This document shows, in pieces, positions 4,486 through 31,870 of a DNA stretch of 34,584 nucleotides (positions are counted from its first letter, which is position 1; each line of letters opens with the position of its first letter). The notes under the pieces are model-generated. The model did not search any database. It worked only from the letters and a program-made list of their open reading frames with translations, and was not told the DNA's origin. The position numbers and the translations under genes were made by a program. This stretch comes from Clostridia bacterium (lineage in GTDB: Bacteria; Bacillota; Clostridia; Oscillospirales; CAG-272), in the NCBI GenBank assembly GCA_017625065.1, contig JAGALS010000077.1, forward strand, positions 1 to 34,584, given 5' to 3'.

Positions 4486-5955
4486 ATGAAAAAGATACGG
4501 TTTTTGGCGCTTGCGCTGTGCCTTGTACTGCTCTTTTGCTCCTGCGCCGCGCTGCAGGGACCGCAGGGCCTGCAGGGCATCCAAGGTGAGAAGGGTGAGC
4601 AAGGCGAGCAGGGCATCCAGGGTGAGCAGGGTATACAGGGCGAGCAAGGCCCCAAGGGCGAACAAGGTGAGCAAGGCTTGCAAGGCCCACAAGGCGAGCA
4701 GGGCATCCAGGGCGAGCAAGGCGTGCAAGGTGAGCAAGGCGTGCAAGGCCCGCAGGGCGTCCAGGGTCCCCAAGGTGAGCAGGGCGAACAGGGCGAGCAG
4801 GGCGAGACGGGAAAATCCGCCTATCAATTGTATTGCGAAAAATACAATTACACCGGCACCGAGGAGCAGTGGCTCGCAGAGGTCCACGAGAAGCTGAACC
4901 GCCTTGATTCCGAGGATATCTACAACATCGCAAAGGAAGCGACCGTCACCGTGCGTGTGTACAATTACAGCGGCGAGCTACGCGGCTCGGGCAGCGGATT
5001 TTTCATCGACGGAGAGGGAACGCTTGCAACGGCGCATCACGTGATCGACGGCGCGCATTCGATGAAGATCGAGACCTTTTACGGCAAAAGCTACGACGTT
5101 GAGACCGTAATCGGCTTTGACAAGGTGCGCGATATCGCGCTCTTGCGCGTAAAGGATGTTAAGGACAATGCGTTTTTGAAGACGACCGACAGCGTGACCC
5201 CGGGCGAAACGGCGTATTCGTTCGGCTGCTCGCTCGGTATCTTAAGCGGGTCGTTTGCATCGGGCGTGATCGCGGCACCCTTGCGCGAAAAGGCGGTCGG
5301 TGAAGGTACGACCGAAGTTTTCAAGGAGCTGCAATACACCGCGCCCGTGTCGCAGGGCAACAGCGGCGGCCCCATTCTCAACGCGAAGGGCGAGGTCATG
5401 GGCATCGTGACCTGGGGCTATACCGTTGGCAACAGTCTGAGCTTTGCCACGCACATTTCCGAGCTCGACACCTTAGACCGTACTTATATGAAGTCCGTGG
5501 CGGATTTTTTTGACGAGACCGAATACTATCGGATCAAATTGCTTGAGGTCCTCAAGGACGAGGCTGAAGCAAACGACACGCAAAGCGCCGCCAACACCGT
5601 CACGTGCGGTGACAGCATCAAGGGCACGAGCCAAAACGATGACGTTGATTTTTATAAGCTCGTGATCGGCGAGGACAGCCATTTCAGCATTGCGTTCGTG
5701 GTCAGCGAGGACACGCTTTTTGCTCCCGCGCTGATCGGCACAGGCGGCGCCATTGAGCTGGAGTGGACGGGCTACGCCGATGAGGAGCTGGTCGTTTGCT
5801 GCGCGACGGTCAGGCTTGCGGCAGGCACGTATTACGTAGGCGTTAACGCGCAAGGAGCAGAGGAGTCCGTGCCGTACGTGCTTTATACCTATTGGGATGC
5901 GTGGGCTGATTACGAGGGCTTTGGCGACGTTACAAACGAGGATATGATTTCTTAA
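4486..5955 (+). CDS. Lipoprotein with collagen-like repeats, HtrA-type serine protease and PPC domain
   Basis: The 489-aa protein is a chimera. Residues 1-20 are a lipoprotein signal (Cys18 or Cys20). Residues 25-109 are about 28 uninterrupted Gly-X-Y triplets, mostly GEQ, GIQ, GVQ and GPQ. Residues 110-135 carry a spacer ending EEQWL, a module often seen after such repeats in Firmicutes. Residues about 140-340 form a trypsin-like HtrA/DegP domain with a complete triad: His185 in ATAHHVI, Asp216 in RDIALL and Ser293 in QGNSGGP. Residues about 360-470 resemble a bacterial pre-peptidase C-terminal (PPC) domain ([10 protein letters not shown]). No PDZ domain is seen. It is probably a surface protease held on a collagen-like stalk. 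It is co-transcribed with the YbaK gene and the esterase. Confidence 0.9.
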
Positions 5956-25644: not shown

Positions 25645-25659
25645 AAGGGAGTGAGCAAA

Positions 25660-26601
25660 ATGCCAAATAACGAGAAAACAATACCCGTTGTGGGGCGTTT
25701 TGCCCCTACGCCAAGTGGGAGATTGCACCTTGGCAACCTGATGTGCGCGATGCTGTCGTGGCTTTCGGCAAAGTCGACGGGCGGCAAGGTGCTGCTTCGC
25801 ATTGAGGATCTGGATGCCGCGCGCTGCCCCTTCATGGGGGAGAACACCAAATATATGCTGGACGACCTTGCTTGGCTTGGGCTGACCTTTGACGGCGAGG
25901 TGCTGTGGCAGTCGAAACGTACCGTAATTTATGATACGTATTTTGAAAAATTGAACAAAAAGGGGCTCATTTACCCCTGTTATTGCTCGCGCGCAGAGCT
26001 GCACGCCGCCACCGCGCCCCATCGCGCAGACGGCGCGCCGAAGTACGACCGCAAGTGCTTTTACCGTATGCAAGCGGGCGATCCACCGCCTGCAGGAAAG
26101 AAGCCTGCCTATCGGGTGCAGGTACCAAATGAGGTCTTTGCGTTTACCGATCGCTTGCAGGGCGTGTACCGTGAGAATTTGGCAGAGGATTGCTCGGATT
26201 TTGTGGTGCGGCGCTCGGATGGCGTGTATGCCTATCAGCTTGCCGTCGTGGTGGATGACGCGCTGTCGGGCGTTACGGAGATCGTGCGCGGAAACGACCT
26301 GCTGGATAGCACGCCACGGCAGATGTTTTTGCAGCGCGAGCTTGGGTTTTCTCACCCCGTTTACTACCATATTCCGCTGTTGACCGATGCCGAGGGGCGG
26401 CGACTCTCCAAGCGTGACGGCGACGGATGTATGGAGCGCGTGCGCGAGGTCTACCCCGACTCCGCCCCCGTGATCGGCGCATTGGCAGCGGCTCTCAATT
26501 TGATTCCCTCGCCCGAAAGTATGACCTTGGAGCAGCTGATACCGCTGTTTGATTGGAGCAAGATCCCGCGTGACGCGGTCAAGCTCCCCGACGGTTTTTG
26601 A
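25660..26601 (+). CDS. gluQ: Glutamyl-Q tRNA(Asp) synthetase
   Basis: The 313-aa protein is a shortened glutamyl-tRNA synthetase that activates glutamate and attaches it to queuosine 34 of tRNA(Asp). It has the HIGH-equivalent HLGN (residues 23-26, in FAPTPSGRLHLGN), the KMSK-equivalent RLSKR (248-252) and the zinc site Cys107-x-Cys109 with Tyr129 and Cys133, which marks GluQ. It lacks the anticodon-binding domain of GluRS, as expected. The start is the ATG eight bases after AGGGAG rather than the GTG three codons before. It is co-transcribed with the upstream lipoprotein gene. Confidence 0.92.
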   Translation: MPNNEKTIPVVGRFAPTPSGRLHLGNLMCAMLSWLSAKSTGGKVLLRIEDLDAARCPFMGENTKYMLDDLAWLGLTFDGEVLWQSKRTVIYDTYFEKLNKKGLIYPCYCSRAELHAATAPHRADGAPKYDRKCFYRMQAGDPPPAGKKPAYRVQVPNEVFAFTDRLQGVYRENLAEDCSDFVVRRSDGVYAYQLAVVVDDALSGVTEIVRGNDLLDSTPRQMFLQRELGFSHPVYYHIPLLTDAEGRRLSKRDGDGCMERVREVYPDSAPVIGALAAALNLIPSPESMTLEQLIPLFDWSKIPRDAVKLPDGF

Positions 26602-26650
26602 GCTGGGAAGCGTTCCAAAAAAACTTTTTTAAAAACTTTTCTAAAAGCTC

Positions 26651-26679
26651 TTGACATTTGCCGTTGTAACGAGTATAAT
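26651..26679 (+). promoter_or_regulatory. Consensus promoter of the repeat array and tRNA-Leu
   Basis: TTGACA and TATAAT, both perfect, are spaced by 17 bp. Transcription would start near 26686, so the three 46-bp repeats form the 5' leader of the tRNA precursor. Confidence 0.9.
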
Positions 26680-26702
26680 GTTAACGTTGTCAAATGCAAC
26701 AC

Positions 26703-26840
26703 GCGGGCGTGATGCGGACCCGTTCCGCCACACCCACAAATTAAATATGCGGGCGTGATGCGGATCCATTCCGCCACACCCACAAATTAAATATGCGGGC
26801 GTGACGCGGACCCATTCCGCCACACCCACAAATTAAATAT
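26703..26840. repeat. Three tandem 46-bp palindromic repeats derived from the tRNA-Leu 5' end
   Basis: Units start at 26703, 26749 and 26795, and the tRNA starts exactly one period later at 26841. Each unit opens with the tRNA's acceptor arm (GCGGGCGTG), then GCGGA, a variable 5-base loop, TCCGC, and an inverted acceptor-like CACACCCAC, then AAATTAAATAT. Read on the minus strand a unit looks like a tRNA with only an acceptor stem (7 bp, two of them G-U) and a D-like stem. The loop differs between copies while the stems are kept. No spacers are present, so this is not a CRISPR array. Confidence 0.88.
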
Positions 26841-26927
26841 GCGGGCGTGGCGGAATTGGCAGACGCGCAAGACTAAGGATCTTGTGGTTGTATTACTGTG
26901 AAGGTTCAAATCCTTTCGCCCGCACCA
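26841..26927 (+). tRNA. tRNA-Leu, anticodon AAG
   Basis: The 87-nt cloverleaf has acceptor GCGGGCG/CGCCCGC, D arm GCG/CGC with the GG of the loop, anticodon stem CAAGA/TCTTG with 7-base loop CTAAGGA, a long variable arm as in leucine tRNAs, T arm GAAGG/CCTTT with loop TTCAAAT, discriminator A and an encoded CCA. The anticodon at 26875-26877 reads AAG, for CUU codons; A34 would be expected to become inosine. It follows directly on the repeat array, sharing its first bases with the repeat unit. Confidence 0.95.
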
Positions 26928-26958
26928 TATTATGTTGCCTTAATAGATGCAGGCAGCG

Positions 26959-26993
26959 AAACCCCAGAAGCCAAGCGGCTTCTGGGGTTTTTT
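26959..26993 (+). terminator. Terminator of the tRNA-Leu transcript
   Basis: AACCCCAGAAGCC pairs with GGCTTCTGGGGTT around AAGC and is followed by TTTT, about 30 bp after the tRNA. Confidence 0.92.
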
Positions 26994-27023
26994 CATGCGA
27001 TTTTTTTGAAGTAAAAATAAAAG

Positions 27024-27123
27024 ATGCATTTCGCATTTTTCGGGGTTTGATAGGGACTTAAACCCCTACCCACCCATTTTGAGGGCAGAGTTTTTACGAT
27101 TTTCGAGAAGGTTCTGCCTTTTT
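27024..27123. repeat. Left copy of a diverged repeat flanking the AT-rich operon
   Basis: This copy starts AGATGCATTTCGC, then TTTTTCGGGG, GATAGGG, CTACCCA and ATTTTGAGGG, in the same order as the segment at 30608-30690. It contains GGGGTTT/AAACCCC and ends in GGCAGA/TCTGCC with TTTTTT, which could terminate transcription. No gene is seen between 26994 and 27178. Confidence 0.55.
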
Positions 27124-30159: not shown

Positions 30160-30307
30160 AAGCGGAATCATGCATCTATTAAGGCCACACTTGAAATCGC
30201 AAAAACGTGGATTTTTGATGAATTTCAAGCATCAAAAAACGCCCAAGCCCTTGAAAACACTGGGTTTTCGCGTTTTGGCAGATGCATCTAAATTGACCAC
30301 ACTAGCC
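30160..30307. repeat. Inverted-repeat-rich non-coding segment with TGCATCTA motifs
   Basis: No gene is seen. The segment holds ACTTGAAAT/ATTTCAAG, TTGATG/CATCAA and an AAAACGC/GCGTTTT pair enclosing CCCA/TGGG. TGCATCTA occurs at its left end (30173) and right end (30283). From 30281 the head GATGCATCTAAATTGACCA matches 31592-31610. Confidence 0.5.
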
Positions 30308-30343
30308 AAAAAATCGACTTGTTTTCAACAAGTCGATTTTTTT
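30308..30343 (+). terminator. Hairpin with U-run at the head of palindrome array 1
   Basis: AAATCGACTTGTT pairs with AACAAGTCGATTT around TTC and is flanked by A and T runs, so it could stop transcription in both directions. Confidence 0.75.
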
Positions 30344-30590
30344 ATCCAAGCCGCAGGCTTGGCATAGACGCTCGCAGGCTCGCTATTCCGTCGCTGCGCT
30401 CCTTACATCCGCCGCAAGGCGGTATATCATCAGCCCTCTGGGCTGTATATCATCACACGCCAGCGTGTATCTTTCCTGCGGCTTGATGATATGCAATGCT
30501 TCGCATTGATGAGATACCGCAACAAGTTGCGGATGAGATACACGCCTTCGGCGTGATGGCAGCTTGCCGCCGACTAAGCGGTTCAACGTC
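30344..30590. repeat. Array 1 of short palindromes joined by TATATCATC
   Basis: About ten different palindromes of 12-18 bp (for example CCGCCGCAAGGCGG, CAATGCTTCGCATTG, CCGCAACAAGTTGCGG, ACGCCTTCGGCGT) are joined by a short linker that reads TATATCATC in the left half and GATGATAT or GATGAGATA in the right half, so the whole array is itself inverted. It ends CCGCCGACTAAGCGGTTC. It is non-coding and contains no constant repeat, so it is not CRISPR. Confidence 0.75.
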
Positions 30591-30607
30591 CCGTTGTTAC
30601 TTTTCAT

Positions 30608-30690
30608 AGTAGATGCATTTCTCGTTTTTCGGGGGATAGGAAATTGAATTTCTACCCAAAATTTTGAAGGTTCTACCCGTTTTTTGTTGC
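30608..30690. repeat. Right copy of the diverged repeat flanking the AT-rich operon
   Basis: AGATGCATTTCTCG, TTTTTCGGGG, GATAGG, CTACCCA and ATTTTGAAGG occur in the same order as at 27024-27123, with small gaps. The two copies are direct repeats on either side of the operon and small RNA. Confidence 0.55.
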
Positions 30691-30715
30691 AGCTCTTGAA
30701 AAAATATGGTATACT
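30687..30715 (+). promoter_or_regulatory. Promoter of the membrane-protein gene
   Basis: TTGCAG and TATACT with 17-bp spacing lie about 72 bp before the likely start codon. Confidence 0.6.
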
Positions 30716-30787
30716 GAAAACAGCTTAAGGACTTTGGAGGGTGGATGGCAAATTCTTAATGCAAAACGTGAGGAGGCAAGCGCAGCA

Positions 30788-31579
30788 ATGAAAGAAAGCA
30801 AAGCGATGGAAAATCAAAAAATATCTATGAGTGTTTATTTCATACATCTGCTTTTTGCGGTTTATTTTATCGTTTTGACCACAGAGCGCGTCCAAAGCAT
30901 CGTGCGATCTGTTCGGGATCCCGCAGTGCTTTTGTTCGGGGACGGATTTAACCGATATGTTTATCTTGTCACGTTTCTGTCTCTTGCGGTATCGCTGATA
31001 TATCTGATCGTTACAAACGGCAATTTATTCGTAGGCGTATTTACACGCAGCGCCCGAGTGCATGGAAGCGTTCGAATGGAACGACTTTGTATTGCGGCGG
31101 GGCTGATCCTTGTTTCGGGGATGGTGCATACCGAATACACCGTTGCCCCGATCCAGTTTGGCGCATACGGTGCTTTGATCGTTGCTATCATCATTCAAAC
31201 GGCGCTCACGCAGAAGCGATCCGACAAGCCGGTGCTGCTTTGGCTGTCCGTTTCCTTTCTGACGGCGTTTTCCATGGCAATTCCCGTTATGTATCGCTCC
31301 AATATAGCATACGCAGGATTGTTTCACGTTTTAGAGGCAATCACGGCATTGGTGCTTGTCGCCATGTTTACGGGCATGCTCTATAAGGTGTTTTGCAAAG
31401 ATGCCACCAATCTGTTTTACTTTGTACCAATGCTGACCGCATTGGTATTGGATACGGTGCTGATCGTGATGCGCTCGCGGGAGGAGATCAATTGGTTCGT
31501 CTTGATATCACTGATCGCCACATGCGTGCTGTTCCTTATCGGACGCCTGTGGGACAGGTTATTTTCGCGCAATCGGTGA
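30788..31579 (+). CDS. Unrecognised integral membrane protein (about eight helices)
   Basis: The 263-aa protein has hydrophobic helices near residues 14-32, 57-78, 99-114, 122-140, 149-168, 177-200, 209-227 and 236-253, short charged loops and a basic C-terminus (RLWDRLFSRNR). No transporter or enzyme motif is recognised. I choose the ATG 11 bases after GAGGAGG; an ATG seven codons later is possible, and an upstream TTG frame has no advantage. Its base composition is like the GC-richer neighbours, not like the AT-rich operon. It stands alone, with its own promoter and a terminator, between two palindrome arrays that carry the same head sequence. Confidence 0.82.
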   Translation: MKESKAMENQKISMSVYFIHLLFAVYFIVLTTERVQSIVRSVRDPAVLLFGDGFNRYVYLVTFLSLAVSLIYLIVTNGNLFVGVFTRSARVHGSVRMERLCIAAGLILVSGMVHTEYTVAPIQFGAYGALIVAIIIQTALTQKRSDKPVLLWLSVSFLTAFSMAIPVMYRSNIAYAGLFHVLEAITALVLVAMFTGMLYKVFCKDATNLFYFVPMLTALVLDTVLIVMRSREEINWFVLISLIATCVLFLIGRLWDRLFSRNR

Positions 31580-31618
31580 GAAGCATCAACGTGCATCTAA
31601 ATTGACCAAACTAGCCAA

Positions 31619-31654
31619 ACAAAAGGGAACGCTTCGGCGCTCCCTTTTGTTTTA
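31619..31654 (+). terminator. Terminator of the membrane-protein gene, at the head of palindrome array 2
   Basis: ACAAAAGGGAACGC pairs with GCGCTCCCTTTTGT (one mismatch) around a TTCG tetraloop and is followed by TTTT. The preceding bases (TGCATCTAAATTGACCA, then ACTAGCCAAA) repeat those at 30283. Confidence 0.85.
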
Positions 31655-31870
31655 TCCATTGCGAAAGCAATGGTATATCATCGCCGCTCGAAGTGCGGCG
31701 TATATCATCAGCCCCCTGGGGGCTGGATATCATCACGCGTTAGCGTGTATCAAAGCTTTCACAATGATGATATACAACACTGCGTGTTGATGATATGCAA
31801 TTCCTGCGGAATGGATGATATACACGCCTTCGGCGTGCTCGGCGCCTCGCCGCCGACTAAGTAGGTTCAT
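31655..31870. repeat. Array 2 of short palindromes joined by TATATCATC
   Basis: Palindromes such as CCATTGCGAAAGCAATGG, AGCCCCCTGGGGGCT, AACACTGCGTGTT and ACGCCTTCGGCGT are joined by TATATCATC on the left and GATGATATAC on the right, ending CCGCCGACTAAGTAGGTTC. Layout, linkers and end match array 1, while most palindromes differ. The stretch 31580-32272 otherwise holds only a promoter and a riboswitch. Confidence 0.75.

Follow-up and report, generated by a model that had tools for sequence, protein, structure and literature searches.

The tRNA-Leu(AAG) gene and its leader

The window, that is, the whole 34,584-nt stretch of DNA analyzed here, encodes a single tRNA gene, tRNA-Leu(AAG), at positions 26841-26927 of the plus strand (ARAGORN). 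An ORF (25651-26601) with a class I Glu/Gln-tRNA synthetase catalytic domain ends 239 bases before the gene. A plus-strand promoter of the form TTGACA-17-TATAAT (26651-26679), described as perfect in the first-pass annotation, indeed agrees with the consensus at 12 of 12 positions, with a 17-nt spacer. It is followed by a short plus-strand hairpin, GTTG..CAAC (26686-26700), which lies near the presumed transcript start, is paired in the predicted fold and is of a kind also found in AAG orthologues that bear the modules described below. Three 46-bp units (26703-26840) then run in register into the tRNA gene, as the first reading of the sequence had it. From the position of the promoter, these units should be transcribed in the leader of tRNA-Leu(AAG). 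Downstream of the gene, a perfect 14-bp inverted repeat with a following T run (26959-26990, plus strand) is the probable terminator of the tRNA transcript; the terminator scan did not return this inverted repeat.

Each unit, hereafter called a module, is built from the 5′ end of the tRNA (modules 1 to 3 at 26703-26748, 26749-26794 and 26795-26840, all on the plus strand). It opens with an arm M (26703-26711, 26749-26757 and 26795-26803) that has the sequence GCGGGCGTG, identical to tRNA nt 1-9, and that is followed by two extra bases and GCGG (nt 10-13). After a short loop comes an arm A (26721-26737, 26767-26783 and 26813-26829), which is antisense to tRNA nt 1-16 apart from misfits at nt 2 and 6. 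An AT-rich linker of 11 nt, identical in all three copies, closes the module (26738-26748, 26784-26794 and 26830-26840). The A arms are thus directed at nt 1-16 of the tRNA, whose 3′ acceptor strand is able to pair with M. Tandem Repeats Finder reported the array at 26703-26849 with a period of 46, 3.2 copies and 96% matches, so that the first bases of the tRNA do form the start of a fourth copy. With up to 3 mismatches allowed, the window contains three occurrences of a 24-nt core, and 100 shuffles contained none. The differences between the arms at tRNA positions 2 and 6 give C.A on the plus strand and G.U on the minus strand, as had been pointed out. The accompanying description of constant stems with varying loops held for the three copies here and more widely among relatives, with the exception that copy 1 reads CGTTCC where copies 2 and 3 read CATTCC; its A arm has one misfit more than theirs.

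Both strands of the array folded far better than shuffled sequences, with -57.0 kcal/mol (z -5.4) for the plus strand and -78.6 kcal/mol (z -7.4) for the minus strand, and with 0/200 shuffles as good in either case. In the predicted fold of the window array, the M arm of module 1 pairs with the 3′ end of the tRNA and much of the remainder forms one long hairpin. These and all later folding energies are computed without tertiary contacts, base modification or proteins. In a search of 26550-27100 against Rfam, only the tRNA passed its gathering score, with matches to the array far below theirs, and no T-box was matched in the same region at E values up to 5. A CRISPR array was rejected as an explanation because the whole 46-bp period is repeated, linker included. 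Elsewhere in the window, a 9/18/36-bp tandem repeat (4572-4806) could encode a Gly-X-Y (collagen-like) stretch. The interval 30283-31837 contains two pairs of direct repeats (30283-30313 / 31592-31622, 94%; 30531-30555 / 31813-31837, 96%), and the ORF that lies between them (30734-31579) had no Pfam match.

Modules in related genomes

The source genome is 88% complete, and its 31 tRNA matches gave 29 distinct genes for testing. Three of these, Leu AAG, UAG and CAG, had leaders with self-antisense sequence for which 0/200 shuffles were as good. The other 26 genes tested, including Leu CAA and UAA, had no module, the nearest being equaled by 10/200 shuffles. At up to 2 mismatches the unit was found in this genome only at tRNA-Leu loci. 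A further 110 tRNA genes came from three genomes picked for having modules and from loci L073 and L075. Nine of them reached 0/200 shuffles, all with scores of 24 or more, and all nine were Leu genes (UAG 4/4, CAG 4/4 and GAG 1/3); Leu CAA (0/3) and Leu UAA (0/2) were without a module, and among the rows listed five non-Leu genes stood at 2-4/200 shuffles with scores of 16 to 18.

Within the family, a strict sequence pattern of the module was found in 25 of 395 genomes, representing 7 of 71 genera, and its reversed control found none. A covariance model (R1) built from the modules was matched 69 times, in 29 of 295 genomes representing 10 of 71 genera. Every match lay in a tRNA-Leu leader: 67 were upstream of an intact tRNA-Leu with a CUN anticodon, and the remaining two (G125) preceded a 5′-half tRNA-Leu copy at a contig end. 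With this placement, and with the same restriction in the source genome, a REP/BIME or MITE-like dispersed repeat was rejected. The first-pass annotation had allowed that a repeat absent at this tRNA in all close relatives would be a one-off slippage product. The modules in 10 of the 71 sampled genera speak against such an origin, as does a module at the orthologous AAG locus in four of five aligned species.

The presence of modules in the family is patchy. In a sample that was not picked for modules, 7 of 110 usable Leu genes scored 3/300 shuffles or better; the sample comprised 111 rows, one of them empty (L286), and was drawn from 30 returned loci and 60 stretches hand-chosen from a list. 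Fourteen Leu loci of the source genus had no module in the unit survey. The AAG locus was identified next to one and the same gene end in five species; in G005 the module is replaced by a short leader, and the AAG gene of G004 (L022) is likewise without a module.

A scan of named genomes returned 40 stretches, 37 of which were metagenome-assembled genomes labelled Clostridia or Oscillospiraceae bacterium, many of them carrying host names (roe deer, water deer, sheep, horse). Three of its loci were set aside: L105, from Tateyamaria, has one partial complement before tRNA-Leu and was judged a chance match, L109 had no tRNA found, and in L130 the match is not at its tRNA. Of 295 genomes of the order, 4 matched a looser pattern. 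Three of these belong to the source family; in the fourth, from another family (G433, L229), the match overlaps the promoter and was also judged chance. A virus-borne origin was rejected, as the strict pattern found no stretch in viral contigs. In four contigs (G072:C23, G072:C4, G028:C13 and G140:C117) the end lies inside tRNA-Leu(CAG) or within 54 bases upstream of it. The leader repeats may break assemblies at these places, and the true number of modules may be higher.

Several other elements were observed in tRNA leaders of these genomes. An H-type pseudoknot, CCUCGGAG-loop-CUCCGUGUAAAAAUUAA-, recurs in the tRNA-Leu leaders of L028, L073, L076, L236, L252, L259, L301, L304, L306 and L345; its loop can pair with the bases just before the linker, and the two covary by eye (for example TTCACC/GGTGAA and GTCCTC/GAGGAC). 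No Rfam family matched it above the gathering score in the eight of ten loci searched. A structured-looking element of about 130 nt occurs in the leaders of tRNA-Leu at L263, L280, L296, L307 and L342 and of tRNA-Ser CGA at L221, and in the Leu loci it is placed after a 20-22 nt copy of the tRNA 5′ end; again there was no match above the gathering score (five of six loci searched). Copies of the 5′ half of tRNA-Leu, broken at the D-loop or anticodon loop or with hairpins inserted there, stand before the intact gene at L028, L089, L090, L091, L207, L289, L304, L338, L339 and L345, although at L345 the contig ends before an intact gene. The tRNA-Asn leader of L170 (G204) has a 5′-end copy, hairpin inserts and a partial antisense arm, for which 3/200 shuffles were as good, and it appears to follow the same plan outside tRNA-Leu. 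Finally, separate 3′ parts of tRNA-Leu(CAG) (nt 34-87) were found at G078:C28:287-340, G088:C42:17072-17125 and G100:C137:9898-9951. They resemble the attachment-site duplicates that integrated elements would leave.

Agreement of the arms with the tRNA

A first set of modules consisted of 64 units before 43 of 68 distinct Leu genes, most of which were fetched because of a pattern match. At the level of sequence the general module consists of M (tRNA nt 1-8, one or two extra bases, and nt 10-13) and A (the antisense of nt 1-16). M (nt 1-8), an inner GCG and A are conserved, and the loops and linkers vary, some loops containing whole inserted hairpins. The extra bases of M follow nt 8 or 9 and are absent from A. 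The loop-side part of A varies hardly or not at all. In 46 distinct units of the 64, A was Watson-Crick with the tRNA at nt 9, 10, 12, 14 and 15 in all 46 and at nt 16 in 43, and nt 15 and 16 of A have no partner in M. The alignment of modules (A2) holds 39 of 45 sequences, and the comparison of M with A cell by cell uses the same 46 units.

M was placed in two ways. It was placed by its best match to its own tRNA in the unit survey, the 46-unit comparison, the within-genome pairs and the comparison of acceptor sites with nt 9. For departure tracking, pairing counts, folding, scrambles and the comparison of single-copy modules with arrays, it was placed by a pattern independent of its own tRNA. 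The latter placement gives 34 distinct gene-module pairs and misses modules with long inserts and some off-register ones (L341, L348, L351). The register of L019 was set by hand for the pairing counts, folding, scrambles and the single-copy comparison.

Where a tRNA departs from the family consensus within nt 1-9, its M follows it, at 21 of 21 departures. A follows less strictly, at 18 of 28 departures; leaving aside nt 7, at which the default A fits the departing tRNA base in any case, the count is 8 of 17. It matches all five departures at nt 5, 11, 13 and 16, two of nine at nt 6, one of two at nt 17 and none of one at nt 15. Within single genomes, M has the base of its own tRNA at 36 of 36 positions that discriminate between genes (24 ordered gene pairs, not independent), and at these positions A has the complement of its own tRNA at 21 and that of the other tRNA at 12. 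Joint changes of tRNA, M and A were found in the D stem at nt 11 (L346) and nt 13 (L024 and L353, which belong to one genus and perhaps reflect one event), and similar ones were seen by eye in L341 and L348. In a GAG gene (L197), A follows a change at nt 16 even though this position has no counterpart in M.

M can pair with the 3′ acceptor strand of the tRNA at 237 of 238 sites. With A it pairs at 178 of 238 sites when no gaps are placed and at 199 of 238 when one indel or any offset is allowed, the latter being the fairer figure since seven modules gain two or more pairs once an indel is allowed. M thus appears to fit the acceptor strand of the tRNA rather than A, its partner in the hairpin. 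Misfits with A stay unrepaired while M stays with the tRNA, which suggests a role for M beyond that of one side of a hairpin. Covariation across copies, which the first-pass annotation had proposed to look for, was present and was modest for the M:A hairpin itself: 16 cells had changes in both arms (mean after shuffling 9.4; 1/500 shuffles), with only 2 covarying pairs (shuffled 1.9).

Possible explanations: a two-state switch or a satellite

Two readings of the modules remain in contention. In the first, the modules are a non-adaptive satellite anchored on tRNA genes, which we regard as at least as likely as the second, although we would not give it an even chance. Template switching, which the first reading of the locus had named, is a possible origin of the modules: a fold-back template switch would have copied the 5′ end of the tRNA in inverted orientation behind its duplicate. 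Slippage would then have multiplied the unit, conversion among tRNA-Leu genes would have carried the core from gene to gene and maintained the identity of M with the tRNA, and only sequences that leave enough tRNA would have been tolerated. In line with this, copies within one leader are nearly identical, presence is patchy, and the AAG locus has one copy in G019 and three in the window. Mean core similarity is 0.68 between different Leu genes of one genome (19 pairs) and 0.40 between genomes (477 pairs), or 0.42 between genomes for the same isoacceptor only (186 pairs), and 0/2000 label shuffles reach 0.68. The likeness within genomes suggests that cores spread or were homogenized there while the arms fit the local tRNA. 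In addition, 4 of the 20 single-copy modules have an M that departs from the tRNA at nt 1-7, compared with 0 of 14 modules in arrays; two further departures occur in L351, which lies outside these 34 modules.

Other features of the modules fit a satellite less well. The extra base of M is kept while both of its sides follow the tRNA, and a conversion tract spanning it should erase it. Differences between M and the tRNA number 6 in 329 acceptor sites and 6 in 47 sites at nt 9, which has no acceptor partner (Fisher's exact test: p = 0.0014), although a short tract ending before nt 9 could also explain this difference. Besides the near invariance of the loop-side part of A, the AAG locus itself bears on the question. 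M and A, with both misfits, are the same in modules 2 and 3 of the window (G000) and in three other species (G019, G006 and G016), whereas the loop, the linker and the promoter spacer differ between G000/G019 and G006/G016. As G006 and G016 are nearly identical, the module-bearing AAG loci represent three lineages. The misfits of A at nt 2 and 6 are shared across them, which argues against fresh decay, and a one-off template-switch palindrome was rejected on the same conservation of M and A beside a differing spacer and linker.

In the second reading, which is our main, tentative proposal and to which we give roughly one chance in three or somewhat better, the decoy 5′ half and the antisense arm act as a two-state switch on the maturation of pre-tRNA-Leu. 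The leader would supply a decoy copy of the tRNA 5′ half (M) together with an antisense arm (A). In state 1, M would be paired with A and the tRNA would fold with its own 5′ strand. State 2 would begin with an invasion by tRNA nt 12-17, for which the conserved loop-side part of A (ATT), unpaired or only partly paired in M:A, would be the toehold. A would then pair with tRNA nt 1-16, and the freed M would take over the 3′ strands of both the acceptor stem and the D stem, giving a long tRNA-like RNA with an A:tRNA hairpin inserted in its D-loop. The extra base that M has and A lacks would favor the pairing of A with the tRNA. In state 2 the regular cleavage site of RNase P would be masked, so that the yield of mature tRNA-Leu(CUN) would depend on the fraction of transcripts in state 1. 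No further CUN-reading tRNA-Leu is present among the 29 genes tested in the source genome, and therefore state 1 must form often enough. The effect on RNase P processing and the tRNA-like decoys that the first-pass annotation had suggested are both plausible in this light.

The energies of the two states were assessed by folding models. A forced onto the tRNA 5′ end was predicted to be more stable than leader and tRNA folded apart in 42 of 43 genes. In 33 of 34 genes M was predicted in the acceptor stem with the true 5′ end under A, the remaining one (L335) being predicted in state 1 with M:A and a normal tRNA; the mean predicted probability of being in the acceptor stem was 0.93 for M and 0.02 for the tRNA's own 5′ strand. 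In growing transcripts the predicted optimum switches to A:tRNA by tRNA nt 20, also in 33 of 34. For comparison, the own strand had a predicted probability of 0.80 in 124 CUN Leu genes without a module, from which every locus with a module in any gene was left out, and of 0.96 for those tRNAs alone. With A alone scrambled, the values were 0.12 for the own strand and 0.84 for M; with M alone scrambled, they were 0.01 and 0.54. In this energy model either arm alone displaces the own strand, and the model thus depicts the module as disruptive rather than as needing all of its parts.

Several of these results count against a switch. Wholly scrambled leaders already cut the own-strand probability to 0.52, scrambling of a single part leaves the prediction standing, L335 is predicted in state 1, A follows only 18 of the 28 departures, covariation between M and A is modest, the presence of modules is patchy, and the departures of M occur, among the 34, in single-copy modules only, as slippage would give. 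All three CUN-reading tRNA-Leu genes found in the source genome carry modules, and they must nevertheless yield tRNA. The indel-allowed M:A count (199/238) and the one-part scrambles led us to lower the weight of the switch slightly and to raise that of the satellite to the same degree. If the switch is real, both states would form in cells, change RNase P cleavage and be kept by a benefit.

Three further readings are less probable. The modules could be the smallest form of a mobile mini-element that inserts in the loops of tRNA genes and brings a new tRNA 5′ part, M being the remnant of the original gene. By eye, the leaders of L028, L089-L091, L207, L263, L280, L289, L296, L304, L307, L338 and L339 contain tRNA 5′ fragments that end in or next to a D-loop or anticodon loop, with structured inserts between fragment and intact tRNA. 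Such an arrangement would suit a mini-element of this kind, but 69 of 69 model matches are at tRNA-Leu and the source genome has the unit, at up to 2 mismatches, only at tRNA-Leu loci; we consider this reading unlikely. Less likely still, state 2 would be an alternative tRNA in its own right. M would give the 5′ strands of the acceptor and D stems, one gene would have two interchangeable 5′ halves, and a cut in the intron-like D-loop insert would yield a two-piece (split) leucine tRNA in a bacterium. The least credible reading, which we regard as very improbable, is that the minus strand is transcribed into small tRNA-like decoy hairpins in which the G.U pairs matter, a weight the first-pass annotation had put on these pairs. 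The minus-strand array does fold better (-78.6 against -57.0 kcal/mol), in 28 of 43 genes the leader is more stable on the minus strand, and of the 79 M:A cells that are not Watson-Crick, 46 are G.U solely on the minus strand and 8 solely on the plus strand. Column composition explains this pattern, however: the excess of A.C (48) over G.U (8) among 506 plus-strand cells is reached by 814 of 1000 shuffles. Moreover, a promoter scan of 26500-27100 finds none on the minus strand, M follows the tRNA rather than A, and L019 has the opposite polarity by eye.

The modules share features with several known systems. In transcription attenuators and riboswitches, three competing strands form exclusive folds. 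The modules are similar in that one antisense strand may pair with either of two sense strands, and different in having a tRNA as output and a copy of that tRNA as the competitor, with no known ligand. Template-switch quasi-palindromes have an inverted copy beside its source, a short loop and a duplicated flank, a layout that the modules share; the modules differ in their occurrence in 10 sampled genera, in arms that track the tRNA and in cores common within genomes. REP/BIME elements are short imperfect palindromes, sometimes in tandem, and dispersed; the modules are like them in form and unlike them in being placed in tRNA-Leu leaders only. We know of no precedent for control of a tRNA by a copy of its own 5′ half. 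To our knowledge the use of such a copy as a competitor is therefore new, while the logic resembles that of three-strand switches and of inhibitory leaders. Stem-loops in bacterial pre-tRNA leaders are reported to inhibit RNase P, as in E. coli valVW (PMC9433436). The modules are comparable in that structure beside the tRNA might impede cleavage by RNase P and thereby control processing, and the order of promoter, modules and tRNA is in keeping with such a leader; unlike the stem-loop in that one leader, the modules are often in tandem, are made from the 5′ half of their own tRNA and its antisense, and track each tRNA. No description of such modules was found in the literature searched, which consisted partly of listings and the opening lines of abstracts, and their absence from print is not thereby proven.

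If the proposed switch is real, the maturation of essential CUN-reading tRNAs in some uncultured gut Clostridia would be controlled by a competing copy of their own 5′ half in the same transcript. Even if the modules are non-adaptive, they are a natural record of a tRNA gene seeding, tuning and spreading a palindromic satellite. The three-way tracking of sequence among tRNA, M and A provides a means to measure conversion against selection.
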